The notes under the pieces: generated by a model
The model's input: the letters and a program-made list of their open reading frames with translations, nothing else
What the model was told of the DNA's origin: nothing
Databases searched by the model: none
NCBI RefSeq assembly: GCF_012272835.1
Contig: NZ_JAAWWK010000002.1
Coordinates: forward strand, 587,451 to 651,450
Direction of reading: 5' to 3'
Source of the DNA: Spongiibacter thalassae
Lineage (GTDB): Bacteria > Pseudomonadota > Gammaproteobacteria > Pseudomonadales > Spongiibacteraceae
DNA length: 64,000 nucleotides
Program-made: the position numbers and the translations under genes
Part shown: in pieces, positions 12,312 through 56,430 of the stretch
How positions within the stretch are numbered: position 1 is the first letter of the stretch
How the letters are laid out: every line of letters begins with the position of its first letter

Positions 12312-12331
12312 TGTCGTTTCCTTGATATTCA

Positions 12332-13198
12332 TTAGCCACCCATACTTGTCAGGGCGCGACTGATTGACATCAGTCCCGGGCCGGCGATAACAATCAACAT
12401 TGCCGGGAAGAGAAACACCATCATGGCGATGGACATCTTGCCGGACATTTTGTTGACGTCTTCCTGCAAGTCCAGCCGCCGCCGGTTTTGCAAGAGTTTG
12501 TAAAGCTCGTCCAGCGCCTTGTCGATGCTGCCGCCAGTAATCGATTGCTGGCGAATCACGATCAGGTATTCCTTGAATCCCACTGCACTGCAGCTATTAA
12601 TCAGCTCGTACAGAGCGACTTCCTGGCTCTGGCCGGCTTCTATTTTGGTCACAGCCGAGCGCAGTTCCTGGGAGCAGGTTGGCGAAAGGTCGCGCAGCTC
12701 TTCACAGATAATGGACAAAGTGCGGGGGAGTGACAGGCCGACACGCCACAGCATACGGGTGGTCTGTGTCAGCATCAGGGTTTCCTGGTCCAGCCGCGCT
12801 TGCCGGGATTCGGCGATATTTTTCAGAATGACGTATGCAAAATAGGTGATCACGAAGAAGGCGAGTACGCTGCCACTCAGCGCCTGCACCATGTCCAGTC
12901 CACGATACAGACAGGCGCCGAAGGCTACTAATGTCAGGAATGCAATGGCAAGCAAGGCCGCCACCAAAGCTGTAACTTGATCTTCGGTACGAAACAGTCC
13001 GGCGCGGCGCAGAAGCTGCGACAAGGAGGCGAGGTGGGTGTTTTCTTCCCGCAGTTGGCGCCACACGTCCTTGGTGTCAAAGCGCATTTCTCGCGGCTTC
13101 TCTTCGCCGCTTTCGACGTGGGCGAGGGCGAGCAGCAGCACTGGTGCGGTACAGAGTACCAATGCGCCGATGATGAAGTAATAGTGATGGACTTCCAT
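12332..13198 (-). CDS. tadC: TadC, inner-membrane platform protein
   Basis: A 288-residue membrane protein with a type II secretion F (GspF) domain. It has hydrophobic segments near residues 5-25, ~80-130 and ~255-280, with a cytoplasmic helical domain between (LSLPRTLSIICEELRDLSPTCSQELRSAV...). TadB and TadC are thought to form the platform that couples the TadA ATPase to pilus assembly. Its ATG follows GGAGAACGTC, 9 bases after the tadB stop. Confidence 0.88.
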   Translation of the reverse strand: MEVHHYYFIIGALVLCTAPVLLLALAHVESGEEKPREMRFDTKDVWRQLREENTHLASLSQLLRRAGLFRTEDQVTALVAALLAIAFLTLVAFGACLYRGLDMVQALSGSVLAFFVITYFAYVILKNIAESRQARLDQETLMLTQTTRMLWRVGLSLPRTLSIICEELRDLSPTCSQELRSAVTKIEAGQSQEVALYELINSCSAVGFKEYLIVIRQQSITGGSIDKALDELYKLLQNRRRLDLQEDVNKMSGKMSIAMMVFLFPAMLIVIAGPGLMSISRALTSMGG

Positions 13199-13207
13199 GA
13201 CGTTCTC

Positions 13208-14068
13208 CTATTTACCGATACTGCTAATCATGCGTACCAGTACTATCACGCCGACAACCTGCAGGATGACTGCGCCCATGAGCATGCGTTGCCCGCTGGG
13301 GTCAGCCCACATACCCAGTAGAAAATCCGGATTGACGCCGAACATATAGGCGGCGATACCTGGCGGAAGCATGGCCAGCACAAAGGCGGTGACGCGAGTT
13401 TCCCCGGTCATAGCACTCAGCTCCCGCTTGCCCGCTTCGTCGAGACGCAAAATATCAACAATGTCATCGAGAATCGCGCGGATACTGCCACCGTATTGCT
13501 CGTTGATTCGAATCGCTGTCGCCAGCACGTTAAATTCGTGAAGCTTGGTTTGCTTGGCTTCCTTGTCGAAGGCCTGGTGCAGGTCGTAGCCCATATGAAC
13601 GCGACGAACCACCCGCCGCATGATAGTACCCAGCGGGCGCTCAAGGGTTTCCACTGAATCGGCAAAGGCGTTTTCGACGGAGATACCCGCAGACAGGCGT
13701 CGCGTGACTTGGTTGACAAAGGAGGGAAGCTGCTCAAGCATTTTTGCCCGGCGCCTATTGCCGACAAATTTCACCGCCAGAATCAGCAGGCCCGCGCAGG
13801 CAAAGGCGGCAACGCCGCCAAACTGCAGGGGCAGTGCTAGCAGGCTAAGCAGAGCGCAGGCTGCGGCGATCGACAGAGAGACATAGATGATAACCGGAGG
13901 TAGCTCCACACCATTGGCCGCCAGGTAGTCGGTGATAAAAAGGGGCACCTTGGCATTGGTGTCGCTGGGCAGTGCCTCGGATTCCAGCACGGGTTCCTCG
14001 CCGCTGACAAGCACAAAGAGGACAAAGGCCAGTCCGATAGAGAGCAACATTATGGCTATCCAGAACAT
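13208..14068 (-). CDS. tadB: TadB, inner-membrane platform protein
   Basis: 286 residues. An N-terminal transmembrane helix is followed by two central helices (~65-100), then a GspF-domain cytoplasmic segment with the F-domain motif (QLPSFVNQVTRRLSAGISVENAF...) and a C-terminal pair of helices. The partner gene tadC follows immediately and tadA precedes it. Length and topology are those of TadB. The start has GGGAG 8 bases upstream. Confidence 0.9.
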   Translation of the reverse strand: MFWIAIMLLSIGLAFVLFVLVSGEEPVLESEALPSDTNAKVPLFITDYLAANGVELPPVIIYVSLSIAAACALLSLLALPLQFGGVAAFACAGLLILAVKFVGNRRRAKMLEQLPSFVNQVTRRLSAGISVENAFADSVETLERPLGTIMRRVVRRVHMGYDLHQAFDKEAKQTKLHEFNVLATAIRINEQYGGSIRAILDDIVDILRLDEAGKRELSAMTGETRVTAFVLAMLPPGIAAYMFGVNPDFLLGMWADPSGQRMLMGAVILQVVGVIVLVRMISSIGK

Positions 14069-14083
14069 TATGGTTCTCCCTGT

Positions 14084-15328
14084 CTAGGATACGTCGTCGA
14101 ACAACGATACTGTCGCGTGTTGTACTTCGACCAGTTCCTTGTGAACGAAGTCGTAGCGGAAGTGCTCCTTTAATCCCACGCGATCGTTTTCAATGACCAG
14201 TTCGCAAATTTGCAGCACGCAGCGGTGGCCATCGGGCTTGCGACCGATATGTACGATCATATCGAGGGCACTGGCTATCATCTTCAGGATCAGTTCGCTC
14301 GAGCCCTTGAAGCCCGACATGCCAACCATCATTTCCAGACGGGTCAGCGCATCTTCGGCAGAATTGGCGTGAACAGTGCTCATCGAACCGCTGTGTCCGG
14401 TGTTCATCGCCTGCAGCATATCGACTACTTCACCGCCGCGGCTTTCACCAACGATAATTCGGTCTGGCCGCATACGCAGGGCGTTTTTTACCAGTTCCCG
14501 TGCACTGATCTCGCCGACCCCTTCGTTGTTTTCCGGCCGGGTTTCCAGGCGCACAACATGGGTATTGCGCAGCTGTAATTCTGCGGCATCTTCAATGGTG
14601 ACGATGCGCTCGGTGGCGGGAATGTATTGGCTGAGTATGTTGAGCAGGGTAGTTTTACCCGAGCCGGTGGCACCGCTGATCAGAATATTGGTGCGATTGG
14701 CGACCTTGTCGGTTAAAAACTCCAGGGCGCGCTCGGTAATGGAGCCGCCCGCCATCAATTCCTGAGCGGTCAGCGGGTCCTTGCGGAATTTCCTGATGGA
14801 CAGGCAGGGGCCGTCCAGCGCCAGCGGCGGCACGATGGCGTTGATACGACTGCCATCGGCCAGCCGTCCATCTACGATGGGACTGGACTCGTCGATACGG
14901 CGGCCCAGTGGTGAAATCATGCGGCGGATTACCCGCAGCACATGGCGGTCGTCGAGAAAGCGCATCTGCGCCTGCTCGAGTACACCGCGGCGCTCGACAA
15001 AGATTTTGCGGGGGCCGTTGATCAGAATGTCGTTGACGTCAGGGTCTTCCAGCAGGGCCTGTAGGGGGCCATAGCCTGTAATTTCGTTAATCAGCTCTTT
15101 TTCCAGTAAATCGAATTGATCCCGGCCAATATTCATTTCGTAAATACGGCTGAACTGACGCATATAGGCGCCCACCGCTTCTTCCAGCTTTTTCTCGTTG
15201 TCATCGTAGATAATATTGTCATCTTCGATGCGGTCGATAACGAAGCGGTGCAGGGTTGCCTTGAGGTTTTCGTAGTCGTCAACCTGAGGGAGTTGCACTT
15301 TAGAGCTTCTGCGATCAATTAGTCTCAT
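14084..15328 (-). CDS. tadA: TadA/CpaF assembly ATPase
   Basis: A 414-residue cytoplasmic secretion ATPase. An N-terminal helical domain precedes the CpaF core: a GYGPLQALLEDPDVNDILINGP segment, Walker A GATGSGKTT, the Asp box VTIEDAAELQL, Walker B region (RPDRIIVGESRGGEVVDMLQAMNTGHSGSMSTVHANS) and arginine fingers. It powers Flp pilus extension, and in several species retraction. Only 35 bases separate it from rcpA, leaving no room for the tadZ/cpaE gene normally placed here. Confidence 0.93.
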   Translation of the reverse strand: MRLIDRRSSKVQLPQVDDYENLKATLHRFVIDRIEDDNIIYDDNEKKLEEAVGAYMRQFSRIYEMNIGRDQFDLLEKELINEITGYGPLQALLEDPDVNDILINGPRKIFVERRGVLEQAQMRFLDDRHVLRVIRRMISPLGRRIDESSPIVDGRLADGSRINAIVPPLALDGPCLSIRKFRKDPLTAQELMAGGSITERALEFLTDKVANRTNILISGATGSGKTTLLNILSQYIPATERIVTIEDAAELQLRNTHVVRLETRPENNEGVGEISARELVKNALRMRPDRIIVGESRGGEVVDMLQAMNTGHSGSMSTVHANSAEDALTRLEMMVGMSGFKGSSELILKMIASALDMIVHIGRKPDGHRCVLQICELVIENDRVGLKEHFRYDFVHKELVEVQHATVSLFDDVS

Positions 15329-15363
15329 GTCAATGTACTCCTGAGTCCCGGACCCGTGCGCGG

Positions 15364-16692
15364 CTAGTTGGCAAAACCGACATCGGATTTCCTTGACCCG
15401 GTGGTCGCTTGGTGTGTCTCCGGCTTGTCCATGTCGCGAAACAGCATGTCGGTGAAAGACGGGCTGTAGTGCCGGTAGGTGTCACCGGGCATTTCGGGGA
15501 GGGGCGCATCCTTGGCGATGGGCTTGACCAAATGGGGGGTGACGATCATCAGCAGTTCCTTGTCGTCCTGCTCGAAGCGCGACGAGCGAAACAGGGCGCC
15601 GAGAATGGGGATGTCGCCCAGGCCGGGTACGCGGTCAGCGTTGTTAAAGGTGTTGCGGCTGACCAACCCACTGATAATAAAGCTTTCACCGGGTGCGAGT
15701 TGTATTGAAGTATCGGTGCGGCGCACGCGCAATGCGGGCACAGACACGCCGCCTGAGGCTACACCGCTGCTGAAATCCAGGTCGCTGACTTCCGGCGCCA
15801 CCTTCAGCATGATGCTGTCTTCGCTAAGCACCGTTGGCGTGATGTGCAGACGTACACCGAACTCCTTGTACTCGATCTGCACCTGACCATCGCGGTTGGA
15901 AATGGGGTATGGGAATTCACCTCCGGCGAGGAAGGTCGCCGTTTGCCCGGATAGCGCCACCAGAGAGGGTTCAGCCAGGGTGTAGGCATAGCCATTCTGG
16001 GACAGGGCATTAATGGTGGCGCTAAAGCCGTTTCTGGCGTGGCCGACTAATATCGAAGAGGCGTCACCCCCGGCAACGGTATTGCCGATCAGCGCGCCCA
16101 CAGGGCCGGCTCCGCTGAGCAAGCCGAGCAGGTTATTGTTGCCCAGTGCCACGGAGCTGTCTCCACCGATGTAGGCCAAGGCACTGCCCACCTGTTTCAG
16201 TTGTGAGCGGCTGTACTCGACGATGCGTATGTCCGTTTGCACCTGAATCGCCCCTCGCTGGCTGGTATTGTCCAGGGCTTTCTCGCCGCTGGCGCTGAGC
16301 AGCTGGTCGTGTTGCATCAGCGAGCTGGTGCGGCCTTCGATGCTCACGCTCTGGCCGACAGCGTCGATGGCGACACCATTGGCACTCGACAGAGGGATTT
16401 GCGGCACCACGTCGATGCGAAATTCAGTGGGTTCGCTGCTGCCTTGCCACAGCAGCAGTGCAGTAGAGCCGACATTCTTCGCGGTAATCAAAAACTCGCG
16501 AGAGTTCAGCACCTTTAGGGTGGCAATTTCCGGGCGGCCAATCGCACTGCGCTTGACGCTGTACTTCGTGCTCAGCATGTGCTGTTCACCAGGGGTCAGG
16601 CGCAGGGTTTTATAGGGTTCTGCAAAAGCGCTTTCGGACGGGATGCTGCACAGGAAACCCAGCACCAGCGCGATCAGAAATCCTTGTTTCAT
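15364..16692 (-). CDS. rcpA: RcpA/CpaC outer-membrane secretin
   Basis: About 442 residues. A cleaved signal peptide (MKQGFLIALVLGFLCSIPSESAFA) precedes the pilus-assembly N-domain (residues ~25-100; 'V.R.AIG.P.IA...V...REFLITAKN.G.T.L..W'). The secretin domain follows, with VALSGQTATFLAGGEFPYPI and a conserved LL(M)IVTPHLV end. It forms the outer-membrane channel of the Tad pilus. The frame opens 13 codons earlier at 16731, but the ATG at 16692 gives a clean signal peptide and has CGGAG upstream. Confidence 0.9.
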   Translation of the reverse strand: MKQGFLIALVLGFLCSIPSESAFAEPYKTLRLTPGEQHMLSTKYSVKRSAIGRPEIATLKVLNSREFLITAKNVGSTALLLWQGSSEPTEFRIDVVPQIPLSSANGVAIDAVGQSVSIEGRTSSLMQHDQLLSASGEKALDNTSQRGAIQVQTDIRIVEYSRSQLKQVGSALAYIGGDSSVALGNNNLLGLLSGAGPVGALIGNTVAGGDASSILVGHARNGFSATINALSQNGYAYTLAEPSLVALSGQTATFLAGGEFPYPISNRDGQVQIEYKEFGVRLHITPTVLSEDSIMLKVAPEVSDLDFSSGVASGGVSVPALRVRRTDTSIQLAPGESFIISGLVSRNTFNNADRVPGLGDIPILGALFRSSRFEQDDKELLMIVTPHLVKPIAKDAPLPEMPGDTYRHYSPSFTDMLFRDMDKPETHQATTGSRKSDVGFAN

Positions 16693-16730
16693 GGTTGATA
16701 CTCCGTATCGATTAACTGATATGCGAGGCA

Positions 16731-17630
16731 TTACTTCGGCACCCGTATCGTTTCAACTTTATCGCCGTTGTAAACATACACGGATTTAGGCGGCGGTGGT
16801 GGCTTGAAGCCGGTGACTTCACGCATCAGTGTGGCCTTGTCGTCAATTTCCGTGCCGCGGTCGGCTATGGCGCTCTCTCCGGACGCGTCGTCCTGTGCCA
16901 GACGCTCGTCGTCGCCAATGGCAATCAGGCGCAAGTCGCCGCTGCGTTCAGCCAGGATCAGACGATTGACGTCGTCCAGCTCGACCTCCAGCACTGCCGA
17001 CTTACTGCGCTTTCCGCTGTCTTTATCGTTGTTTGACTTGCTCTTGCCATCCTCGCCGGACAGCGGTTCGCGCTCGCCATCCAGGCTCGCGCCAAAGGCC
17101 AGCAGTCGCACATTTTTCAGCACGCGGCGAGACATGCTGCGGTTAAGGGTTTCCTTGCTCGCGCGGGTGGTAAAGATGACATCGACATAATCGCCGGGTT
17201 TAAGGAAGCCGCCGGTGCCGATTACCTCATCTACTTTGATCGCAACGGCGCGGTGGCCCGCTGAAATCTGCGTGGTCAAGGTTGCAGCGGCATCAAAGTC
17301 AGTGGCGCGTACCGGCGAACCCTTGGCGATATCGTGGGTGGGGCGGGTTCCCACCAGGTCGGCAATTTTGCTGAAGCCATTGTCGATAGTCACCGGGTAG
17401 GGCACCACGAGCAGATCTTCCTCGGTGATGACCTCACCTTCAAGCAGGTTTTTGTTCGCAACCACCAGTTTTTGGGCGTAGGTGTACGAACCGGCCTCAC
17501 TGACCGTGGATTGTGCGGCGCGGGCCTGGCGTTGGCTATCTTCCTGGCTAATCCTGTAGCCAATCACCCCCATGATAATCGCGCTGATAATAAGCAGCGC
17601 GGCGATGATTTTCAGGGTCCTTGCTTGCAT
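16731..17630 (-). CDS. rcpC: RcpC/CpaB Flp pilus assembly protein
   Basis: 299 residues. An N-terminal signal anchor (LKIIAALLIISAIIMGVIGY) and an SAF/RcpC domain (VVVANKNLLEGEVITEEDL..., then GHRAVAIKVDEVIGTGGFLKPGDYVDVI) are present, followed by a C-terminal tail. A highly charged Ser/Lys/Asp insertion (EDGKSKSNNDKDSGKRSKS) interrupts the domain near residues 195-215. RcpC is a periplasmic partner of the RcpA secretin. It ends just before the rcpA ribosome binding site. Confidence 0.88.
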   Translation of the reverse strand: MQARTLKIIAALLIISAIIMGVIGYRISQEDSQRQARAAQSTVSEAGSYTYAQKLVVANKNLLEGEVITEEDLLVVPYPVTIDNGFSKIADLVGTRPTHDIAKGSPVRATDFDAAATLTTQISAGHRAVAIKVDEVIGTGGFLKPGDYVDVIFTTRASKETLNRSMSRRVLKNVRLLAFGASLDGEREPLSGEDGKSKSNNDKDSGKRSKSAVLEVELDDVNRLILAERSGDLRLIAIGDDERLAQDDASGESAIADRGTEIDDKATLMREVTGFKPPPPPKSVYVYNGDKVETIRVPK

Positions 17631-17851
17631 AGGGCGATCCTTTTTATGCAGTCAAAAGTAATTGTTGGTGAGCGATACAGCGACTCGGTTCAAATGCCAA
17701 CAGCAATCCCGACGCTGTTTCACTAATAATAGCCGTCGTGTCGTTGGGGGTTCATTGTGGTAGATACGTATACTAGCAGGGAATTTCTCCCTGGCTCGGG
17801 GTTGAGGGGCAGGAGTGGGGCTGTCAGCCGAAGAGATTGTCATTTTTGTCA
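17631..17851 (-). other. 221-base gap between tadE and rcpC
   Basis: It separates the tadE stop from the rcpC start inside an otherwise compact operon. Reading frames here are short and lack codon structure or family similarity. I see no clear terminator; a promoter for the rcpC-tadG part is possible, but I cannot point to good hexamers. Confidence 0.4.
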
Positions 17852-18292
17852 CTACATCCGCAGGCTCGCTTTACCGACCAGTTCAGCGGGAAGGCGCGGC
17901 ACTTCGCCAAACACAGGCAGGTTCAGCGAGGGAATCAGTGGGCCCGCACTCAATCGGACTGTGCAAAGATTTTCCGGGGTGCATGAGAAAAAGTCGTCGC
18001 CGCTGGTGGCTTCGGTGACATAAGTGACCGATAACCAGCTCAAAGTGGCCTCGACCTGTTCCTTGACCTTGGGTTCCAGCTCTTCCGGAGTGCAAGTTCC
18101 GTCGCAGGGGTGGGCAAGGGCGGCGCGCAGAGCCTCTTCGCTGGCATAGGTGAAACTTTGCAGAACGAGAAACGCCAGCCCGTAGGCGATCATGGCGTAG
18201 ACAATGCCCAGAAATACCGGAAAGACAAACGCAAATTCTATTGCGACGGCTCCCGACTGGTAATGACGAAGACCTTCTCTTAAGCCTGACAT
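17852..18292 (-). CDS. tadE: TadE-like pseudopilin
   Basis: A 146-residue protein with the TadE motif near the N-terminus (QSGAVAIEFAFVFPVFLGIVYAMIAYGLAFLVLQSFTYASEEALRAA): a short basic leader, a prepilin-like G/AVAIEF site and one hydrophobic helix. TadE is a minor pseudopilin matured by the TadV peptidase and needed for Flp pilus formation. The mature part has cysteines (HPCDGTCT, FSCTPENLC) that could form disulfides. Here it sits between tadV and rcpC instead of next to tadG. Confidence 0.82.
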   Translation of the reverse strand: MSGLREGLRHYQSGAVAIEFAFVFPVFLGIVYAMIAYGLAFLVLQSFTYASEEALRAALAHPCDGTCTPEELEPKVKEQVEATLSWLSVTYVTEATSGDDFFSCTPENLCTVRLSAGPLIPSLNLPVFGEVPRLPAELVGKASLRM

Positions 18293-18396
18293 TTCCTGAT
18301 CCTTTTTTTGGCTACCGCGGAGCGTTCAGCTGGCGTGGCAGGCATCGGTGCCCTGAATACCTTCCTTATGACTCGCCTGGTGTGCTGTGCTGAACC

Positions 18397-18873
18397 CTAA
18401 AACATGTAGAGCAGGGTGCAGCCGATTGCTATCGCAGTGCCAAGGGGCAAGCCAGAGTCGGCACGTGGGCCTCCATGGTATAAGGGGGTGTTGCTTGGTG
18501 ATTCTCGGGGAACTTCGCCGCCCGAACCGGCGTGCAATGTATTGGTCAAGCGCGTTTGGACCGTCAGTGCGATCAGCACAGTGGCGACGCCACTCGCAAA
18601 TACTATTAACAACTCCATGCTGTTCCACAGCGGGCTGACGGCGACCATCAGCTTTACGTCCCCGGCTCCTACGAGACCCCTTAGGTAGCCAGGAAGTGTA
18701 AGTGCCAAACCAATCAGCAGGTTTAAGAGCAGTGTTGTCGCATCTGTGTTCGGGTTGTTAAATGCCGAAAGTGCCGCAGTGCAGATTAACACTAAAACCA
18801 GTTGATTGGGTATTCGGCGCTGCTGCCAGTCTATTACCGCGATGATCCAAAGAACAAGCGTCGCGCCGAGCAT
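18397..18873 (-). CDS. tadV: TadV/CpaA prepilin peptidase (A24 family)
   Basis: A 158-residue inner-membrane aspartic protease. The two catalytic Asp motifs are visible: IDWQQRRIPN near residue 15 and GAGDVKL near residue 70. Hydrophobic helices surround them, and a Gly/Ser/Pro-rich loop precedes the last helix. It would cleave the Flp prepilin and TadE. It lies directly downstream of flp, the usual position. The ribosome binding site is weak. Confidence 0.88.
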   Translation of the reverse strand: MLGATLVLWIIAVIDWQQRRIPNQLVLVLICTAALSAFNNPNTDATTLLLNLLIGLALTLPGYLRGLVGAGDVKLMVAVSPLWNSMELLIVFASGVATVLIALTVQTRLTNTLHAGSGGEVPRESPSNTPLYHGGPRADSGLPLGTAIAIGCTLLYMF

Positions 18874-19259: not shown

Positions 19260-19688
19260 ATGACTGATTTAAAAAAGAAAGTGAGAGATAGCGCAATTCG
19301 CTACCTCTCACTTAGAGAATATACGAAATTTGAACTATGTCGCAAATTAAATGTGAAGTTTCCTGGGTTAGAGCTTGAAGTTGCCGCCGAAATCGATTTT
19401 TTGGCAAGCAAGGGGTGGCAATCCGACGCGCGATTTGCAGAGTCGTTTCTGCGGCATCGTGCCGCGTCTGGATTTGGGCCCAGGCGGATTCGCCAGGAGA
19501 TGAGATCCAAGGGGCTGGCCGACGAGGAGGCGGACCGCGCGTTTGCGGAGTGCGAGATCGATTGGTCTGCCCGGCGCAGTGAGGTGTGCCTGAAAAAATT
19601 CGGTGTGCTCGACAGCGATGACCGCGCACTTAAGGCGAAAATAGCCCGATTTCTGCAATACCGAGGATTTGAGTTGGGCTGGGAATAG
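19260..19688 (+). CDS. recX: Regulatory protein RecX
   Basis: A 142-residue helical protein that binds RecA filaments and limits their activity. RecX features are the N-terminal 'AIRYLSLREYTKFELCRKL' helix pair, the central 'FAESFLRHRAASGFGPRRIRQEM..KG' motif and the C-terminal 'KIARFLQYRGF' repeat. Normally it is co-transcribed with recA. Here it is separated from recA by pilU and the tad operon, so it needs its own promoter, and no LexA box is visible upstream. The start ATG has only a weak GAGAAA ribosome binding site. Confidence 0.93.
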   Translation: MTDLKKKVRDSAIRYLSLREYTKFELCRKLNVKFPGLELEVAAEIDFLASKGWQSDARFAESFLRHRAASGFGPRRIRQEMRSKGLADEEADRAFAECEIDWSARRSEVCLKKFGVLDSDDRALKAKIARFLQYRGFELGWE

Positions 19689-19771: not shown

Positions 19772-20176
19772 ATGTTAAGCAGGGCGTTGATTTTCGCAGG
19801 TTTTTTTTGGGTGTTTTCAGTACAAGGTGCGGTTGCGCAGGAGGATCATGCGGCGGCCTATCAGGCGCTCGCCGCGCAATTGAACCTCAGCGAGCAGCAA
19901 CAACAGCAAGTTCGTCAGCTGATTAATGCCTATGCGGAAAAAGTTGGCGCATTGCAGCAGCGCACCGCTGAGCTTAGAACCGAGATGCAACACGTACAAT
20001 TGGATACCCTGAAAAAGTCTGACATTAAACGAATGAGTCAGAGCGCGGGTTCAGTGGCCGCGCGCCACACTGGAGCGGTATTGCAAACCCAGTTGGATTT
20101 CTACAATTTGCTTAATACTTCGCAAAAACGGGAATACCTGCGGCTGCGTAAAGAGGGTCGTGTCGGCGGGGGATAG
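19772..20176 (+). CDS. Spy/CpxP-like periplasmic protein
   Basis: 134 residues. A signal peptide (RALIFAGFFWVFSVQGAVAQ) is followed by an almost wholly helical, Gln-rich mature protein with LNLSEQQQQQVRQLI..Y and a second helix ending LLNTSQKREYLRLRKE. The 'L.LS..Q...' and '..Q...Y..LR' helices are reminiscent of LTxxQ (Spy/CpxP) periplasmic chaperone or sensor proteins. An in-frame GTG at 19754 is an alternative start. Helix order and several residues match the N-terminal domain of the giant protein at 23172, while the nucleotidase gene follows here as a separate frame after 89 bases. The relationship is seen in the sequence; chaperone or sensor function is inference. Confidence 0.7.
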   Translation: MLSRALIFAGFFWVFSVQGAVAQEDHAAAYQALAAQLNLSEQQQQQVRQLINAYAEKVGALQQRTAELRTEMQHVQLDTLKKSDIKRMSQSAGSVAARHTGAVLQTQLDFYNLLNTSQKREYLRLRKEGRVGGG

Positions 20177-20265
20177 TGGCTGTTTTCTGCCAATCTTCGA
20201 ATTTGATTTTTAGTTGTTGCGCCCCGTCAGGTCGTTGAGCTGAGTGCAGGGCAGAGGGTTTTGCT

Positions 20266-22917
20266 ATGAAAGCATATCGAACGACGATGTTGGGGGTGAT
20301 GGCTGCCGTCGTACTTACGTCCTGTGGTGGGGGCGGAGGCGGCGGTGGTGCCAGCGTTGAGGAAGAGTCAGGAATAGAGGCGTTCAATGTTGCCGCCGGG
20401 CAAGCGCAAACGGTCAGCTTTGCTGGTGGTGGTGGCGAACTGGCGCTGCCTGCGACGGCGATTGCGGAGCCGTTAAGCATGGAAGTTGCCGTGGATGAGG
20501 AGATGCCCGAGGGCGGCATGTCCCCCGCTTATCGGCTTTCTCCGGAAACCTATGAACTGGCTTCTCCATCTACCCTGAGTATTGCTGTGCCCGAGTCGGC
20601 GCAGAACGGAGCGCGATTTGTCATTGCCCGCCAGGAGGGGGATAGCTGGCGACCCTTGCTGAGTTCCTTCCGCAATGGTGATCGCATCGAAGCCAGTATC
20701 ACTGAACTCGGCGCCTATGTGCTCACAGAGGTGCCTGCCCTGGCGGCGAGCAAAAGTATCGGGCCGGCCTGTACCGAGGTGGCGGAGCAAGAGCTGCGCT
20801 TTACTCACGTGGCAGACTTACACGCCCGATATGGCACAGCGGATCAGTTGTATAGCCGCATCAGGTACTTTCATGACCAGGTCTTGCTGGAGAACCCCTA
20901 TGCGGTACTGACGAATGGTGGCGATGACTTTGAAAAGGGCAGTGTCGCTGAGCTGCTGTCTCAGGGTGTGGCAACCGTTGAGGCAACCCAGGCAATGGGT
21001 TTCGATGTACGGGTGGTGGGGAACCATGATTTCGCCTGGGGCAGTGATATTTTGCTGGAGTACAGTAAAGACGAGCGTGCCGAGGTGATTTCAAGCAATA
21101 CCCTCTATCGCGGTAGCGAAGAGGGTTTTGCTGGGAAGGACATCGTTGCGCTGCAAGTGGGGTGCTTGAAGGTCGGCTTCTTCGGAATGACCTCGACGCC
21201 GTGGAATGAGTTTGACGAACCGCTGGAAGAAGACCCGATTCCCGACTTTTTGCCTGATGTGGAAATGAATTGGCACTGGCAGCAGATTGCCAGGGGCGCG
21301 GTCTACCAGTATCGCGATCAGGTGGACGTGCTGGTCATGCTAAGTCACCTGGGGAAAGGTCTGGACGAGGAGATCGCACAGCAAACACCGGGGATAGACC
21401 TTGTGCTGGGTGGGCACTCCCATGGTGGTGTCAGTACATCGGTGAGTGGCGACGCGATCGTCGTACAGCCTGATTTTTACGCTGACGGCCTCAGTGATAT
21501 TCGGCTGCGATATTCCCTGACGACGGGGCAAAGGCTGGATTATTCGGTGACTAACGTAGAAGTGCGGGATGTCCCCGGGGTCGATGCCACGGTCGCGGCA
21601 GCGATTGACGATATTATGCAACGTCACGCTCCCGAGGCGCGCGCCGAGATTTCAATATCCGAGAATTACCTGACCACCGATGAAATTATTGATGTCGCTG
21701 CCCGGGCGGCACTGTTTCATCACAATGCCGATGCCGTCTTCATGGCGCCCAATGGCGTGAATGATTTTGATCGTTGGCTGCCCGGTACATTGACCCAGGA
21801 AAGTTTTCATCGCGCAATTTCGGTGGAGCGCCAGCCTGCTGATACTCCGGGGTTCACCGGATTCTATGCGGTGACGGTTAGCTTCGCCGAACTGCAGCAG
21901 ATGTTGAGTGCTCAGCCTGATTGGCGCACGGCAATGCGCGAAGGCTTGTCCGATGCAGCACCGATCAAGGTGGTGTTACAAAAAGCGCCAGCGTTGAATA
22001 TATCCACATTTTTCCCGGGGTTGAGTGATCGCAGCGCTGAATTTTTGTCGGAGGCCTGGGAGAGCCTGGATACCTACGCGCGCCATCGCACCTCCCAATG
22101 TTTGCATATTGATACCGATACCCGCTTGTACAGTTGTGACCCGGACACTCTGACGACCGTGTGGCAGTTCAGTGAGGGGAGTACTCCCTTTGCGGCTAGC
22201 CTCGGAGGCTCTGAATTGAGCTTTTTCTCGCCGAGCGGTGGCACCGGCAGTGCGGACATCAGCAGCTTTGGTACGGCCACAGACTTTGGCATTGCGCCGC
22301 TTCCGGATGGTGATTCAGTGCTGTTGTCATTTGGTGCTTACGCTTTCGATGAGGGGGTGGAGCTTCGCCGAAATGTGGCTAACAACGGTGACTACGCTGA
22401 GCAGGGGCTGCTGTCCGATTACACCCTGGTGTTCGATGTGTTTTGGCCGACCGCCAGTCACGGTAAGTATCGCGCAGTGTTGCAGACCAATGTTGCCAAT
22501 GACGACGACGCCGATATCTTTTTTGATAATTCAACAGAGGGCAGGCTGGGTATTGCCACGAGCGGACTGTCCTACTTCGGAGAGTTTCAGCCGGAAACCT
22601 GGCATCGTGTCGCCTTGGTGTTTTATGCCGGTACCACGGAGGGAAGTCTGAAAATCTACCACAACGGCGAGCTTGTAGGAGAAAAACGCGACGGTGATAC
22701 CGATGCCCGCTGGGCGATGTCGGAAGTCGCATTGCTCTTGACAGATAACTCCAATGAAACCGAGGCGGGATACCTGAATGCGCTGTTGTTCGCCGGGCGG
22801 CCCTACACAGACGACGAGATCAAGGCCCTGGGTGGGCCATCTCGGCAGTTGCTGCCTTCTCAGGATACCCAGTCGGTGCAGGCGCGAATTCGCCGACACA
22901 TGGGTGAAGGGGGCTAA
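20266..22917 (+). CDS. Lipoprotein metallophosphoesterase/5'-nucleotidase-like protein with LamG domain (copy 1)
   Basis: 883 residues. A lipobox LTSC at residue 20 is followed by a poly-Gly linker, so it is probably lipid-anchored. Next come a beta-rich domain (~35-165), a calcineurin-type phosphoesterase (~180-430), a domain in the position of the 5'-nucleotidase C-terminal domain (~460-620) and a LamG/concanavalin-like domain (~625-860). Metal motifs are ADLHAR, NGGDD, GNHDF, SHLG and GGHSHG, a full set. The usual NGG-R substrate motif of 5'-nucleotidases is replaced (NGVNDFDRW), so the substrate may be unusual. It follows the Spy-like gene and ends in a strong terminator. Confidence 0.82.
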   Translation: MKAYRTTMLGVMAAVVLTSCGGGGGGGGASVEEESGIEAFNVAAGQAQTVSFAGGGGELALPATAIAEPLSMEVAVDEEMPEGGMSPAYRLSPETYELASPSTLSIAVPESAQNGARFVIARQEGDSWRPLLSSFRNGDRIEASITELGAYVLTEVPALAASKSIGPACTEVAEQELRFTHVADLHARYGTADQLYSRIRYFHDQVLLENPYAVLTNGGDDFEKGSVAELLSQGVATVEATQAMGFDVRVVGNHDFAWGSDILLEYSKDERAEVISSNTLYRGSEEGFAGKDIVALQVGCLKVGFFGMTSTPWNEFDEPLEEDPIPDFLPDVEMNWHWQQIARGAVYQYRDQVDVLVMLSHLGKGLDEEIAQQTPGIDLVLGGHSHGGVSTSVSGDAIVVQPDFYADGLSDIRLRYSLTTGQRLDYSVTNVEVRDVPGVDATVAAAIDDIMQRHAPEARAEISISENYLTTDEIIDVAARAALFHHNADAVFMAPNGVNDFDRWLPGTLTQESFHRAISVERQPADTPGFTGFYAVTVSFAELQQMLSAQPDWRTAMREGLSDAAPIKVVLQKAPALNISTFFPGLSDRSAEFLSEAWESLDTYARHRTSQCLHIDTDTRLYSCDPDTLTTVWQFSEGSTPFAASLGGSELSFFSPSGGTGSADISSFGTATDFGIAPLPDGDSVLLSFGAYAFDEGVELRRNVANNGDYAEQGLLSDYTLVFDVFWPTASHGKYRAVLQTNVANDDDADIFFDNSTEGRLGIATSGLSYFGEFQPETWHRVALVFYAGTTEGSLKIYHNGELVGEKRDGDTDARWAMSEVALLLTDNSNETEAGYLNALLFAGRPYTDDEIKALGGPSRQLLPSQDTQSVQARIRRHMGEGG

Positions 22918-22948
22918 TTCCGTACCTTAAATCATTCAAGCCATTGAA

Positions 22949-22977
22949 AACCCGGCGTGTGCGCGCCGGGTTTTTTT
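22949..22977 (+). terminator. Intrinsic terminator after nucleotidase copy 1
   Basis: CCCGGCG / CGCCGGG with a 6-nt loop, preceded by A's and followed by seven T's, 32 bases after the stop codon. It separates the two paralogues into different transcripts. Confidence 0.93.
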
Positions 22978-23094
22978 ATGTCCTGGTGTTTCCGTGGTGC
23001 GGTGCAGTGGGAGTGGTGGAGAGAGTGGGGCGCGAGAACGGAGTCATTGTTAAACATTTATCCGTCTGGAGATCATGTTGGTGCTAGATGTACG

Positions 23095-23100
23095 TATAGT
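23095..23100 (+). promoter_or_regulatory. Possible -10 element for nucleotidase copy 2
   Basis: TATAGT 72 bases upstream of the GTG start, in the 195 bases between the copy-1 terminator and copy 2. No convincing -35 is seen, so this is tentative. Confidence 0.3.
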
Positions 23101-23171
23101 GACACGGCGCAGAGAGTGATAAAAGTAGAGGATAGGGCGCTCGTGTCCTCTAAAAACAGGCGGTAAAAACG

Positions 23172-26100
23172 GTGCAAAGAATAGCGATAGCAATGCTGTT
23201 TATCGTGGGTATTCTGGTCGCTTCGACCAGAAGCTATGCCAGTGCGATAGAGGGTTTGAATACATTGAAGGCTGAGCTGCAGCTCAGCGCGGATCAGATG
23301 GCATCGGCACAACTGCTGATCGACGATTACGAGCAACAGGTTGCCGCGTTAACCGGTGATGGACAAGTATTGCGCGATCAGATGAACCGAATGGATTTGG
23401 GCACACTCGTCGACAGCGATGCCGTGGAGTTCGGAAATCAGACCGCAGCCAGCACCGCGGCCCACACCAGTTGGGTGATTGAGGCACAGCTGGGGTTTTA
23501 CCGCTTATTGGATTCCAGTCAGCAACAGCAGTACACCGCCTTGCGTCGCCGCTGGGCAGATGAGGGAAGTGCGCCGGATTTGCCGCTGGGCAACTGGCCG
23601 GTGCTCTGTACCTACGAATTTTTGCACTGTGAGCCAGGGGTGATTGCCCCACCGCCCGATCCTGAACCCGAGCCCGATCCGGCCCCGGAAAGCTTTACTG
23701 TGTCGGCGGGAGTCGAACAGGACATTGCCTTTGCCGATGGGAGCGGCAGCCTCACCTTCAGCGAACATGCCCTTACAGATACCCTCGATCTGGAAATTGG
23801 CCAGTCCAGCCAGTATTCGGCGGAAGAACTGCGCTCGGTAGCCTTTCTTCTTGGCCCGCTGACTCAGGATCTGCATAGCCCCTCGGCGTTGAGCCTCGCA
23901 GTGCCAGCGTCGGCCGGCCCGAATGATCGCCTGGTTGTCGCGCGGTTTGAGGATGGCCGTTGGCGACCGCTGTTAAGTTCGGTGCGCGAAAACGATCGTG
24001 TGGTGGCCAGTATCACCGAGCTGGGTATTTATGGCGTCATCGCATTGCCTGCGCCTGTGGTCGCCCGTCAGGTCGGCCCAGCCTGCGACGCTGGCTCCCA
24101 GGAACAGGACCTGCGCTTTCTCCATGTTGCCGATCTTCATGCCCGCTACGGCAGCGAAGAGCAGCTGTATCCCCGCTTGAAGCAATATCATCGCGATGTG
24201 TTGCTGGAAAGTCCCTACACCCTGTTTACCAATGGCGGAGACGATTTTGAAAAGGGCAGCGTCGCAGAGCAATTGTCAGCAGGGGCGGCGACAGTGGAAG
24301 CGACCCAGGCACTTGGCTTTGATGTGCGGGTGATCGGCAACCATGAGTTTGCCTGGGGAAGCGACCAGCTATTGGCTCACAGCCAGGACCCTGTCGCCCA
24401 GGTGCTGAGCAGTAATACCCTGTATCGCGGCGATCAAGTCGGCTACGCAGGCAGGGACTTTGTGGTGCTCCAGGTTGGCTGTTTGAAAGTGGGCTTCTTC
24501 GGCATGACCTCGGTGCCCTGGAATGAACTTGACGAACAGGAAAAACACGATCCTATTCCCAACTTCCTGCCCGATGTTGAAATGAATTGGCACTGGGAAC
24601 AGATCGCCAAAGGGGCTGTGTATCAATATGCCGATCAGGTCGATGTACTGGTTATGCTAAGTCATCTCGGGGTGGGCAAAGACACCCGTATTCTCGAAGC
24701 CAATGCCGATATAGATGTCGCCCTTGGTGGGCACACCCACGGAGGTATCGAGAATATCGTTACCGCCAACGGCAATCTGGTGGTACAGCCTGATTTCTAC
24801 GGCGACGGTCTGACTGATATCCGTCTGCGCTATTCGCTGGCGAGTAAAACCCTGAGCATCGACAATGTGGCGAACATCGACACCAAGGACATCGACGGTG
24901 TCGATGAGGAAGTGGCGGCGGCCATCGACGATATTATGGCCCGCTATGCACCGGAAGCCGATGTTGAAATCGCCATTGCGGAAACCAGCCCCACCGAGGC
25001 CGAAGTGGCGTCGCTGGCCGCCAGGGCCGCTCTTTACCACCACAATGCGGATGCGGTAATGGTGCTGCCTGACACGGTGACCGGCGAGTGGTCGGCGGGC
25101 ACGCTGACTCAGGAACACTTTATGCGGGCTATCACCGTGGAGCGTCAGCCAGCGGATACTCCTGGCTTCACTGGCTTCTATGCCATTACCGTAACGATGG
25201 CGGAGCTGGAGGCAATGCTTGCGGCGCAACCGGACTGGCCGTCTGCGCTGAAGGAGGGCGTTGTCGAGGGTGAGGCCCTGACTCTGGTGTTGCAAAAAGG
25301 CCCGGCGTTGAACCTGCCCTTGTTTTTTCCCACGATCGCCGACCGGGAAGCGCACTTCCTGTCGGAAGCCTGGGAGAGCCTCGAAGCCTATGGCCGTTAT
25401 CGAACCGCCCAATGCCAGCATATCGACACGGATACCCGCCTGTTTGGCTGCGACCCGGATACCTTGACCACCGTGTGGCAATTCAACGATGGCGCGATGC
25501 CGTTGACCCCTGACTATGGCCCTTCGCGACTGGCTTACTATTCGCCAAATGGGGGGAATGGCAGCGAGAATGATACGGCGTTCGGCACTACCGACGAGCT
25601 GGGAATTCCGGCGATTCCCGGAGGCACCGCCACAGTGATGGCCTTTGGGGATTATTCCCCGGATGAAGGGCTGGAGTTGATCACGAATGTACCGGCCAAT
25701 GGCGATTACGCGGCCCTTGGCAAGCTGTCAGACTATACGCTGGTATTCGATATTCTCTGGCCCCAGGAAAGCGACTTTGCCTGGCGGGGCGTACTGCAAA
25801 CCTCGCCCACCAATGCCAATGACGGGGATATATTCTTCAGAAATCGCGCCGCAGGCGGAGTGGGTATCTCAACCAGCGGCTCCTCCTACTACGGGGCCTT
25901 TGAACCGGATGTCTGGCACCGGGTCGCCCTGGTATTTACCGCTGGTGAACAGGGTAGTTTCAAGGTCTTCCACAATGGCGTTTTGATCGGCACCAAACGG
26001 GCTGGCGATATTACCGAGCGCTGGGCTCTGTCGCCGACGGCGTTACTGCTTACCGACAATTCCTACGAGACGCAGATCGGCTATCTCAACGCGCTGTTGT

Positions 26101-26222
26101 TCTCCGGGCGGGCGTTCAGAGACAGCGAAATCGAAGCGCTGGGAGGAGTATCTACCCTGTTGGCACCGGACACCAATACCACTACGGCAACCACTCGGGT
26201 GCAGCAACACAGCGGCCAGTGA
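23172..26222 (+). CDS. Spy-like domain fused to metallophosphoesterase/5'-nucleotidase-LamG protein (copy 2)
   Basis: 1016 residues, GTG start with AGGCGG 8 bases upstream. The signal peptide (IAIAMLFIVGILVASTRSYAS) lacks a lipobox, so the protein is likely periplasmic or secreted. Residues ~27-135 match the separate Spy-like protein at 19772. A Pro/Glu/Asp linker (PPPDPEPEPDPAPE) follows, then the same four-domain architecture as copy 1: beta domain, phosphoesterase (ADLHAR, NGGDD, GNHEF, SHLG, GGHTHG), 5'-nucleotidase C-terminal-like domain and LamG. Long blocks in the phosphoesterase part are nearly identical between the copies (GCLKVGFFGMTS.PWNE, FLPDVEMNWHW). GNHD in copy 1 is GNHE here; both are acceptable in this superfamily. 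Confidence 0.82.
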   Translation: MQRIAIAMLFIVGILVASTRSYASAIEGLNTLKAELQLSADQMASAQLLIDDYEQQVAALTGDGQVLRDQMNRMDLGTLVDSDAVEFGNQTAASTAAHTSWVIEAQLGFYRLLDSSQQQQYTALRRRWADEGSAPDLPLGNWPVLCTYEFLHCEPGVIAPPPDPEPEPDPAPESFTVSAGVEQDIAFADGSGSLTFSEHALTDTLDLEIGQSSQYSAEELRSVAFLLGPLTQDLHSPSALSLAVPASAGPNDRLVVARFEDGRWRPLLSSVRENDRVVASITELGIYGVIALPAPVVARQVGPACDAGSQEQDLRFLHVADLHARYGSEEQLYPRLKQYHRDVLLESPYTLFTNGGDDFEKGSVAEQLSAGAATVEATQALGFDVRVIGNHEFAWGSDQLLAHSQDPVAQVLSSNTLYRGDQVGYAGRDFVVLQVGCLKVGFFGMTSVPWNELDEQEKHDPIPNFLPDVEMNWHWEQIAKGAVYQYADQVDVLVMLSHLGVGKDTRILEANADIDVALGGHTHGGIENIVTANGNLVVQPDFYGDGLTDIRLRYSLASKTLSIDNVANIDTKDIDGVDEEVAAAIDDIMARYAPEADVEIAIAETSPTEAEVASLAARAALYHHNADAVMVLPDTVTGEWSAGTLTQEHFMRAITVERQPADTPGFTGFYAITVTMAELEAMLAAQPDWPSALKEGVVEGEALTLVLQKGPALNLPLFFPTIADREAHFLSEAWESLEAYGRYRTAQCQHIDTDTRLFGCDPDTLTTVWQFNDGAMPLTPDYGPSRLAYYSPNGGNGSENDTAFGTTDELGIPAIPGGTATVMAFGDYSPDEGLELITNVPANGDYAALGKLSDYTLVFDILWPQESDFAWRGVLQTSPTNANDGDIFFRNRAAGGVGISTSGSSYYGAFEPDVWHRVALVFTAGEQGSFKVFHNGVLIGTKRAGDITERWALSPTALLLTDNSYETQIGYLNALLFSGRAFRDSEIEALGGVSTLLAPDTNTTTATTRVQQHSGQ

Positions 26223-26334: not shown

Positions 26335-29280
26335 CTATTGCAACTTTTGTACGCTGAAACCCTGTTCGCTTGTCCAGCTTGAGAGGGTTTTCAGCTTGCT
26401 GTCGCTGCTTATCACCGCAAGGCTTGGCTCGACATCCTTCAAATAGGTGGCGGTGACCCGTTTCAGGTCGTCACCGGTCACCGCCAGTACTCTGCGACGG
26501 AAGCGGCGCCGTTCCTCTATACCGCGACCAAAAAGGTTGCTGTGAAAGTCCTGTTTTGCCTCACCTGCCGGTGAACCCGGTTTATCGATACTGCTGACTA
26601 CCCCCAGAATTGCCTGTTCCAGCGCGTCGTCGCTCACCGTGGTGTCGAGCATCCAGTCGATCGACGCGGTAAAGTCTGCCAGGGTTTCCTGCAGGCGCGG
26701 GTCGCGATAGGAGTAGAAGCGGAAGGCGGCGATATTGGAGTCCTGGGAGGCTCCGCCACCGTAGGCGCCACCTTGCTCGCGGATGCTGCGATGCAGAATA
26801 CCGTTGCGCAGGTACACAGCCAGCACACTCAGGATCGGTGCGTCGGGGTGGTCTGAGGGCACAGTAGGATAGGCACTGGCGCAGAAATTGACCTGGGAAT
26901 TGGCGGCCCAGAATTCCCTGCGCACCTCGCGCACCGCCGGTTGGCTCAGTGTGCCCTGGCCGCCGCCATTGCCAAAGGGTCCCCATACCGACTCCAGTGC
27001 GAAGGTGTGCTGTTGCAGGGCCTCGTCTTCGGCGATCAGCAGCAGCTGGCGAGGGCCGTTGAGGATCTTTTGGTGAAGTCCGGCAAGGGTGTCGGCGAGA
27101 TTGCTCAGTTCACCGCTGTCTTTCACCCCGTTGGCCAGAGTTTTCAACGCGCGAATTCCCGGTAGGCCACTGAGCTGTTGCTGCAACTGTGCGGTGGGGC
27201 TCATGCCGGCACTCGCAGCGGCCATCGCGAGTCCGTGGCCATTGCCGGTAATAGAGGCTTCGCGGCGGGCGCGCAGTTGCGTCACGATATCGGCAATACG
27301 CTCGTGCTCATTGAAACGCAGAGCCTGCATGGTATCGCGCATCAACTCACTCTGCGCTACAGCGTTGCGCAGCAGGGCCTTGGAGGTCAACACCAGGTAG
27401 GCCTTGAAAGCCTGTTCGTCGCTGATATCGCCACGCATGGTGGTATAGGCAGAAATGCCCCCGCATACCGCCGCCTGGCGGTCCTGAACCTGCAGGTAGT
27501 CGTCATCGCCAAGGCCGAGCTCGGTGATGAGTTGGGTGTACACCGGCAGCAGCGCAATTTCGGCGTCGTTCAGGTCGGGCATTTCGACCAATAGTTGCTG
27601 ATAAATCAGGCCGTTGGTGCCCCGCGCATAGGCGGTATAGGGCAGCTCGCCAAATTGCCCGGCAAAACTGGTCAGCGCCGGGGTGTCCAGCGGCACGTCT
27701 TCAAGCCCGACCTTGGGCAGAATACTCTCATCTTCGACCATGGCCTGGCGTTCCAGCAGCGCGTTGGTCTGGTCGATAATCGCTTGTTTTTGCTCCGGGC
27801 TCAGAGAAGCCTTGATGGCCGCCAGGCGTTGTTGTTCAGCTTTTTCGGCGCGCTGTTGATACTGGGTGTCAGGGCGCAGCACCAGAGTGACGCGGTGGCT
27901 GTTGTCCAGCAGGGCGCGGATAAGCGACGGAATGTAGTCGGGGTCTTTGATATTTTCCCGTAGTTCCGCCAGGGCGGGGTCGAGGTTGAGCACTTCCGTG
28001 GGGTTGCCGCGATGGGTGGCGCTGCCAATGGCATTGAGAATTAACTGTAAGCCATAGGGGTAGGAGTCGCCGCTGATTTCCCGTTGCTGCAGCTCCAGTT
28101 GATGCAACACCGCTTCGACCTTGTGCTGTTCCACGCCGACTTCGGCGATATTTTTCAGGGTGTCGAGGATCAGGGCTTCCACTGCGTCGCGCTTGTCGGG
28201 GTCGCTGCCCTCCACGCCACAGGCAAACACCATCTCCTTCATCGAGTCTTCCAAGCCACACATGGGAGACGGTGAGCTGCCAAGATCAGTGGTTTCCAGC
28301 GCTTGCAACAGGGGGCTGGAGCTGTTGTCGAGCAACACTCCCGCCAGCAGTTGCGCCTCGAGCTGGGCGCGCAAGTTGGTGCTGTTGCCCAGCAGCCAGC
28401 CCACGACGATATGGGTCTTGCCCTCGCAGCCCTCGTCCTCCGGCACGGGGTAGCACTCTTCAACCCGAATCGGGGCGTGGTAGCGTTTTTCGTCGGGTAC
28501 GGCGATCACCTCGGGCAGGGCGTCGAACTCCGCCAGCGCCAAGGTTTCAAATTTGTGTTGGTGCTCTCTGGCGGAAATGTCACCAAAGGTCATAAATACC
28601 GCGTTGCTTGGGTGATAGTGGCTGCGGTAGAAGTCCTGCAGCTGATCGTAGCTGAGGTCGGGAATCGCCTCCGGGTCGCCGCCGCTGTTGTAATGGTAGG
28701 TGACATTGGGGAACAGATACTTACTCAGGGTTTGCCAGAGCTGGCTGTTCACCGAACTCATTGCGCCCTTCATTTCGTTGAAGACGACACCTTTGAACAC
28801 CAGGTCTGAATCCGGGTTGCCGGGTTCACTGAACTCCAGACGATGGCCTTCCTGGGCAAAATCCAGGGGGTGTAGCCGGGAGAAAAAGACCGCGTCCAGG
28901 TACACCTGCAACAGGTTGTCGAAATCCTTGCGGTTGCTGCTGGCAAAGGGATATGCGGTCCAGTCGGAGCTGGTAAAGGCGTTCATAAAGCTGTTGAGCG
29001 AACGCCGGATCATCATAAAAAACGGATCGCGAATCGGGTATTTGCGGCTGCCGCACAGGGCGGTATGCTCGAGTATATGGGCGACACCGGTGGAGTCTTC
29101 GGGCACCGTGCGCAGCGATACCAGAAACACATTTTCCGGGTTGTCTGCGGCGATATGGTAGTGGCTGGCGCCGGTCTTGCGATGGCGGTATTCGGCGAGA
29201 TTTACGCCCAGCGCCTCGATATCGGTACTATTGATAAGCTCGAAGCTGGCGTCGGGGGTGGTGTCAAAAAGCGGTTTCAT
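26335..29280 (-). CDS. M16C zinc metalloprotease, PreP-like
   Basis: 981 residues in four M16 half-domains. The inverted zinc motif HxxEH is present (HILEHTALCGSRKYP), with the downstream Glu in the family position. The MIRRSLNSFMNAFTSSDWTAYPFAS segment is characteristic of the presequence-protease/M16C subfamily. These enclosed-chamber peptidases degrade short unstructured peptides. There is no clear signal peptide, so it is likely cytoplasmic. It could recycle peptides brought in by the Opp-type transporter encoded at 32-38 kb, but that is only a neighbourhood guess. Confidence 0.9.
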   Translation of the reverse strand: MKPLFDTTPDASFELINSTDIEALGVNLAEYRHRKTGASHYHIAADNPENVFLVSLRTVPEDSTGVAHILEHTALCGSRKYPIRDPFFMMIRRSLNSFMNAFTSSDWTAYPFASSNRKDFDNLLQVYLDAVFFSRLHPLDFAQEGHRLEFSEPGNPDSDLVFKGVVFNEMKGAMSSVNSQLWQTLSKYLFPNVTYHYNSGGDPEAIPDLSYDQLQDFYRSHYHPSNAVFMTFGDISAREHQHKFETLALAEFDALPEVIAVPDEKRYHAPIRVEECYPVPEDEGCEGKTHIVVGWLLGNSTNLRAQLEAQLLAGVLLDNSSSPLLQALETTDLGSSPSPMCGLEDSMKEMVFACGVEGSDPDKRDAVEALILDTLKNIAEVGVEQHKVEAVLHQLELQQREISGDSYPYGLQLILNAIGSATHRGNPTEVLNLDPALAELRENIKDPDYIPSLIRALLDNSHRVTLVLRPDTQYQQRAEKAEQQRLAAIKASLSPEQKQAIIDQTNALLERQAMVEDESILPKVGLEDVPLDTPALTSFAGQFGELPYTAYARGTNGLIYQQLLVEMPDLNDAEIALLPVYTQLITELGLGDDDYLQVQDRQAAVCGGISAYTTMRGDISDEQAFKAYLVLTSKALLRNAVAQSELMRDTMQALRFNEHERIADIVTQLRARREASITGNGHGLAMAAASAGMSPTAQLQQQLSGLPGIRALKTLANGVKDSGELSNLADTLAGLHQKILNGPRQLLLIAEDEALQQHTFALESVWGPFGNGGGQGTLSQPAVREVRREFWAANSQVNFCASAYPTVPSDHPDAPILSVLAVYLRNGILHRSIREQGGAYGGGASQDSNIAAFRFYSYRDPRLQETLADFTASIDWMLDTTVSDDALEQAILGVVSSIDKPGSPAGEAKQDFHSNLFGRGIEERRRFRRRVLAVTGDDLKRVTATYLKDVEPSLAVISSDSKLKTLSSWTSEQGFSVQKLQ

Positions 29281-53526: not shown

Positions 53527-53602
<76 letters not shown>

Positions 53603-56316: not shown

Positions 56317-56430
56317 GGTGGTCCTTCCGGTCCCCTCGCAACGATAGATAGCAAACCCCGCCAGGCCCGGAAGGGAGCAACGGTAGTTATCAACTCGTGT
56401 GCCGGGGTGTGGCTGGTTGGACTGCCACCC
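56317..56430 (+). ncRNA. ffs: 4.5S RNA (bacterial SRP RNA)
   Basis: About 114 bases. The conserved domain IV is exact in pattern: CCAGGCCCGGAAGGGAGCAACGG with GGAA tetraloop and asymmetric loop. The 3' side carries GTGTGCCGGGGTG, and the outer stem pairs GGTGGTCC with GGACTGCCACC. It lies upstream of dnaX as in Pseudomonas. With Ffh it targets inner-membrane proteins. Ends are estimated from the outer stem. Confidence 0.92.

Follow-up and report, generated by a model that had tools for sequence, protein, structure and literature searches.

The 64,000-nucleotide stretch of Spongiibacter thalassae DNA analyzed here, called the window, carries a predicted metallophosphoesterase gene twice, once next to a gene for a Spy-like protein and once with a Spy-like domain joined to it. 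Three consecutive open frames on the + strand, with 134, 883, and 1016 codons, make up the arrangement. The first (19772..20176) encodes a 134-residue exported Spy-like protein that matches Pfam LTXXQ (PF07813) with an E-value of 1.6e-7. The second, copy 1 (20266..22917), encodes an 883-residue lipoprotein phosphoesterase with a LamG-like C-terminus and was assigned from its open frame, the body alignment, and Pfam. The third, copy 2 (23172..26222), encodes a fused 1016-residue protein, recognized by its open frame and by alignments of its body and its Spy part. A previous reading of the letters, the sequence-only reading, described these genes as split and fused forms of one system, and the alignments confirm that the two forms are homologous. 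The bodies are identical at 494 of 846 residues (58%, E 0), and the long near-identical blocks singled out earlier, FEKGSVAE, GCLKVGFFGMTS, and FLPDVEMNWHW, are present in both. The small protein and residues 32–126 of the fused protein share 39 of 96 residues (41%; E 6e-16 in a single comparison), which excludes a lack of similarity between the Spy parts. At E 0.001, a search of the 4.4-Mb source genome with copy 1 gave these two copies and nothing else.

The Spy-like parts and the fusion junction

The small protein resembles the Spy/CpxP/CnrX family (PF07813) in its LTXXQ match (32.4 bits, over the cut-off of 24.3 bits), its signal peptide, and its helices. A model built from 15 relatives has a mean predicted local distance difference test score (pLDDT) of 84.7 and places helices at residues 19–36, 41–73, 82–112, and 116–127. 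The protein differs from the family in falling far under the cut-off of the NCBIfam Spy equivalog NF007769 (25.9 bits versus 174). Foldseek with this model placed Spy and CnrX in the top ranks, at E-values of 0.049 and up, and CpxP at rank 25, with unrelated helical proteins in later rows. The evidence for a Spy fold is supportive, not decisive, because no Foldseek match was found at 0.001 or better.

The Spy-like domain of the fused protein covers residues about 27–130 (23250..23561, + strand) and was delimited by alignment and LTXXQ scans. It scored 27.2 bits in the genome scan and 22.2 bits, under the LTXXQ cut-off, when the whole protein was scanned. Unlike the Spy family, this version is acidic and sits within a 1016-residue enzyme. 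The net charge of the aligned core, which is not a surface charge, is +2 to +7 in 18 standalone relatives (+6 in the small protein) and −7 in the fused domain. The account of E. coli Spy in PMC9122904 places client binding on a mainly positive concave surface. A core of −7 set against such a surface makes a canonical holdase role, and canonical Spy chaperoning by the fused domain, doubtful.

The fused domain is also by far the longest branch of the Spy tree (5.98). This branch, the charge inversion, and the LTXXQ score under the cut-off in the whole-protein scan favor a neutral fusion, in which the Spy-like part would be a captured export signal, now decaying, with a hairpin that has no role. 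Such an explanation otherwise overlaps the one we prefer below. It sits poorly with the retention of the L-S-x-x-Q stretch and the F-Y-x-x-L columns, which are invariant in the 15-row alignment, and with a frame that stays open over 1016 codons. We regard neutral decay as unlikely.

The two copies are predicted to be anchored differently, as the sequence-only reading had proposed. Copy 1 has an LTSC lipobox within MKAYRTTMLGVMAAVVLTSC, with the codon for Cys20 at 20323..20325 (+ strand), whereas copy 2 lacks a lipobox and starts like a substrate of signal peptidase I (SYA|SA); both were read by eye. The lipobox Cys is aligned, again by eye, in 9 of the 10 bodies compared (copy 1 and eight others) and is missing from the fused one alone. 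There, a Spy-type signal, the hairpin, and a linker with a Pro/Glu/Asp-rich end (23562..23684, + strand) stand where the other nine bodies have the lipobox and a Gly-rich or short tether. Lipid anchoring has in all likelihood been lost in the fused copy.

A fusion present in only one genome could also be an assembly or frameshift artefact that joined two genes. A simple frameshift fails to explain the fusion, since neither of the other two frames at the copy 2 junction contains a lipoprotein signal, and the codon usage of the whole fused gene resembles that of the window genes. An artefact is very improbable.

The Spy locus and the enzyme across the genus

An LTXXQ protein over the cut-off is found in all 18 genus genomes examined. 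In the window, a recX-like gene (19260..19688, + strand; Pfam RecX_HTH1/2/3) lies upstream of the Spy gene, and a PreP-like M16C peptidase gene (26335..29280, − strand; Pfam) is convergent with and downstream of copy 2. The other 17 genus genomes all have the Spy gene within about 1.5 kb of a recX-like gene on the same strand, and in 16 of them the PreP-like peptidase follows Spy or the Spy-enzyme unit (it does not in the G011 stretch). The enzyme stands between Spy and PreP only in the source genome and in the sister species G008 and G009, the S. marinus pair, with Spy-to-enzyme gaps of 89, 109, and 108 bp, respectively. Spy occurs without the phosphoesterase in 11 of the 18 genomes, one of which (G014) is 84% complete. 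Four flanking proteins give the species tree (G000,(G017,(G008,G009))), where G000 is the source genome, with supports of 99–100. Because 15 of the 17 other genomes have no enzyme at the Spy locus, including G017, which is nested within the three-genome clade, parsimony indicates that Spy without the enzyme would be the ancestral state.

The full-length body is present in 7 of the 18 genus genomes and as two tandem copies in Litorivivens (G018), another genus. The match in G012, considered as an eighth genus enzyme, proved to be SoxB (842.6 bits) and was left out of the count. Of the seven other enzyme-bearing genomes, only the S. marinus pair has the enzyme beside Spy. No Spy was found within the 17–19 kb around the enzyme in G005, G007, G016, G017, or G018, so a Spy gene beside copy 1 orthologues is absent from five of the seven. 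The G018 genome, with its two enzyme copies, gave no LTXXQ protein over the cut-off in the genome scan. The enzyme is accompanied by RND efflux and aconitase genes in G016, DUF1214 and SulP in G017, MFS and LysR in G005, and SDR, amidohydrolase, and GNAT in G018. A common operon partner for the enzyme elsewhere was considered and rejected, since none appears among ten neighbors from four genomes (G007 not included). The G018 tandem bodies (L045:8019-13596) are not sisters in the body tree.

These distributions bear on the Rosetta-stone argument of the sequence-only reading, which took the pair as a sign that Spy and the phosphoesterase cooperate. Spy would then be a dedicated chaperone or activator of the enzyme, acting in trans for copy 1 and, within the fused copy 2, in cis. 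Three genomes share the gene order and a short gap between the genes, and one has a real fusion, in keeping with this idea. Acidic unfused bodies (net charge −52 to −71 in nine, with −83 in the fused protein) and basic standalone Spys would also permit electrostatic binding. Against it, the fused Spy core is acidic; adjacency is confined to the S. marinus pair among the other enzyme genomes; most genus genomes keep Spy at its fixed locus with no enzyme; and G018 has the enzyme with no LTXXQ protein over the cut-off. Gene fusions are characterized in PMC4921024 as strong but noisy guides to function. Here the fusion is no proof of a Spy-enzyme partnership because the Spy gene mostly occurs without the enzyme in relatives, and the wider genome pattern speaks against an obligate partnership. 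The partnership claim is mostly unsupported, and we consider a dedicated chaperone or activator improbable. The locus is a worked example in which gene neighborhood and domain fusion hint at a partnership that loses its support once relatives are compared.

The body tree conflicts with the species tree. G016 joins copy 1 (90/92), one Litorivivens body (G018a) joins G017 (95/95), and a tree that unites copies 1 and 2, G008, G009, and G017 in one clade is rejected (p 1.5e-66). Transfer would be the simplest reading of the enzyme's history. The enzyme may have arrived at the Spy locus once or twice.

The explanation we prefer, at a probability of roughly 70%, is that the enzyme arrived next to a Spy gene already in place, one tandem copy fused, and its anchoring was lost. 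An exported metallophosphoesterase (lipoprotein) gene would have come to adjoin spy at the recX-spy-prep locus in the source genome and the S. marinus pair, with Spy there first by parsimony. A tandem enzyme copy would then have become a single gene in which a signal peptide and helical hairpin of the Spy type, followed by a Pro-rich linker, replaced the lipoprotein signal and tether. This order of events, landing beside a resident Spy followed by fusion of a tandem copy, is very likely. The fused protein would then be a two-metal phosphoesterase that is soluble, either in the periplasm or secreted. Its hairpin would now most likely be an export leader, a spacer, or an oligomerization element, not a general chaperone; spacer or oligomerizer in particular is a guess at somewhat below even odds.

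In its favor are the fixed recX-spy-prep locus, the patchy enzyme with its differing neighbors, the conflict between body tree and species tree, the lipobox Cys of nine bodies, the inverted charge of the fused Spy core, the retained metal-site motifs, and a terminator-like hairpin between the two copies. Several results weigh against this explanation. The approximately unbiased (AU) test marginally rejects copies 1 and 2 as sister bodies (p 0.028), so copy 2 may predate the G016 split or have been acquired separately. The branching order of copy 1, copy 2, and G016 is lost once a distant outgroup is added. The Spy parts are undecided on the history of the copies (p 0.31), and the fused Spy, on its long branch, is hard to position; the best tree groups it with the Spys of the source genome, G017, G008, and G009 (88/96, not strong). 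The gene trees carry no direction, which makes gain and loss indistinguishable, and composition gives no sign of a recent foreign origin. The Spy-enzyme order and similar spacing common to the source genome and the S. marinus pair could reflect selection for adjacency. No promoter-like site ahead of copy 2 was reported by a pattern scan. Confidence in the fused-protein model is low (mean pLDDT 58.9, and mostly <60 within the Spy part), and the hairpin cannot be placed against the body.

Larger samples were searched for the body with no more than two candidates scored per genome, at E 0.001 in 390 genomes of the order and at E 1e-20 in 369 genomes of the class. The order sample yielded no further full-length body; the best match outside the family is a two-domain core in G158 (30%, residues 176–609), and others are weaker and partial. 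The class sample likewise yielded none, and its sole other match is the LamG part of a protein in G427, which was again the only match when the module alone was searched. Among the genome matches listed, no LTXXQ-phosphoesterase fusion other than copy 2 appeared. Frames with an LTXXQ match among those listed have at most 377 residues in the class sample and at most 512 in the order sample, except for the 1022 of the source genome; the fused gene itself scores below the class-sample LTXXQ matches listed. Among the papers listed in searches of the open-licence PMC literature, most of them judged from the listing, no report of an LTXXQ protein joined to a phosphoesterase appeared, in keeping with the earlier remark that the architecture is unfamiliar. 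The fusion seems to be peculiar to the source genome.

Body domains and active site

Both bodies fit the four-domain description of the sequence-only reading, and the domains identified here are a beta-rich N-domain, a metallophosphatase domain, a divergent 5′-nucleotidase-type C-domain, and a LamG/ConA-like module. The layout stands, but the LamG score is under the cut-off in copy 1 and there is no hit in copy 2, and the N-domain is unmatched. In the fused protein the N-domain (23685..24065, + strand), perhaps ZU5-like, was recognized from strands in the predicted model, where pLDDT is 74–91 per ten-residue block over residues 171–300. A profile search of this domain against the PDB gave nothing significant, and three of its eight hits are ankyrin (E 0.064, 0.43, and 0.92). 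The metallophosphatase domain lies at 20794..21426 (+ strand) in copy 1 (PF00149, residues 177–387, E 1e-10) and at 24099..24806 (+ strand) in the fused protein (PF00149, E 2.9e-8, with a CD73 structure match). All 10 bodies match PF00149. The C-domain of the fused protein (24807..25406, + strand) is delimited by structure matches that run to residue about 745. The LamG/ConA-like module of copy 1 (22147..22860, + strand) matches PF13385 at E 3.1e-4 (21.4 of the 27.6 bits required). That of the fused protein (25464..26171, + strand) was identified by alignment with the other modules and has no LamG Pfam hit; 8 of the 10 bodies have one. The same C-terminal ConA-like module aligns with that of the G427 protein (L065:1462-3039; 32% identical to the fused one's), whose catalytic domain differs in being a glycerophosphodiesterase (PF03009).

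Residues 311–597 of the fused model superpose on human CD73 over 270 residues at 3.0 Å (Z 24), and the predicted fold similarity spans both 5′-nucleotidase domains, about residues 310–745. The root-mean-square deviation (rmsd) of the full-length fold-comparison rows is near 15 Å, which we tentatively attribute to a different relative orientation of the two domains. The metal-site motifs D-x-H, GD, GNH, SH, and GHxH are retained in all 15 members compared (the ten bodies, G158, and four proteins from metagenome-assembled genomes [MAGs] that are 92–96% alike over their last 400 residues), and the true metal site of the fused copy is at residue 321. The body is highly likely to be a two-metal phosphoesterase. 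It resembles UshA, CpdB, and CD73 in these motifs and in the metallophosphatase and C-domain folds.

The active-site signature sets the body apart from these enzymes. The 15 members all read GNH[DE][FY]A (GNH[DE]FA in copies 1 and 2), where UshA reads GNHEFD and SoxB GHWEFT. Alignments of all 15 retain the His and place an Ala opposite the Asp of GNHEFD, which we take to be the dyad Asp. Type-I 5′-nucleotidases work by an Asp-His dyad according to PMC8475336, and the 15 members, judged by their sequences, would lack this mark of UshA and CD73. PMC7922932 describes a change of CpdB His117 that nearly abolishes most activities.

Twenty-one other relatives from the order divide into 8 with GNHEFD and 13 with GHWEFT. 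The N[SGA]G[GS][IL]R motif, presumably the nucleotide-binding mark of the 5′-nucleotidase C-domain, occurs in six of the eight, in none of the 13, and in none of the 15 members. No body hits PF02872, the 5′-nucleotidase C-domain family, though the C-domain fold matches. Six of the GHWEFT proteins were scanned, and all exceed the SoxB cut-off (701–856 bits); two of the four GNHEFD proteins scanned exceed that for UshA. The 10 bodies each match three NCBIfam models, among which the thiosulfohydrolase SoxB model TIGR04486 has the lowest E-value (6.9e-24). The window proteins stay under the NCBIfam cut-offs; against TIGR04486 they score 70.7 and 56.1 bits, far from the 550 bits required, and they lack GHWEFT. 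By the motif, PF02872, and NCBIfam cut-off tests, the body is neither UshA nor SoxB; on this sequence evidence it is a divergent branch of the UshA/SoxB superfamily. Spongiibacter is given as ushA-like positive and cpdB-like negative in PMC10454023.

This branch occurs in Spongiibacteraceae, and four Deltaproteobacteria/Myxococcales MAGs have it in the form of a two-domain core. A pattern scan of genome contigs found at least eight loci, four in family members and four in these MAGs; it did not return the bodies of G007, G016, and G017, so its recall is perhaps limited. The MAG proteins (L007-L010) have the two-domain core with the shared active-site signature and no N-domain or LamG, and their leader looks twin-arginine.

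The altered signature predicts different chemistry or substrates, and the substrate is probably something other than a nucleotide bound in the 5′-nucleotidase manner. A bolder proposal makes the body the founder of a third class of active site within the UshA/SoxB superfamily, one that lacks the nucleotide-binding motif. Its substrate would be a phosphoester other than a nucleotide, perhaps one borne by surface glycans or lipids that are recognized through a LamG module shared with a glycerophosphodiesterase. In this species, the Spy hairpin would have changed from a basic chaperone into an acidic module that acts in cis and releases the enzyme from the membrane. We offer this tentatively and think it rather unlikely in full.

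Flanking features

A terminator-like hairpin with a T-run lies between copies 1 and 2 (22946..22977, + strand) and was detected by folding a 53-nt stretch (−23.1 kcal/mol, z −3.43), for which none of 200 shuffles was equally stable. The pattern scan for terminators missed it, and the seven terminator-like hits of that scan are at chance level (7.3 expected). A Tad/Flp-pilus-like gene run (window 11604-18873, − strand) adjoins the recX-spy locus and has homologues in the genus stretches. The Pfam scan covered its secretin, TadE, and A24 prepilin peptidase members and identified them as such. A tRNA-Ala (GGC) and the bacterial small SRP RNA are located at window positions 53527-53602 and 56325-56421, respectively.

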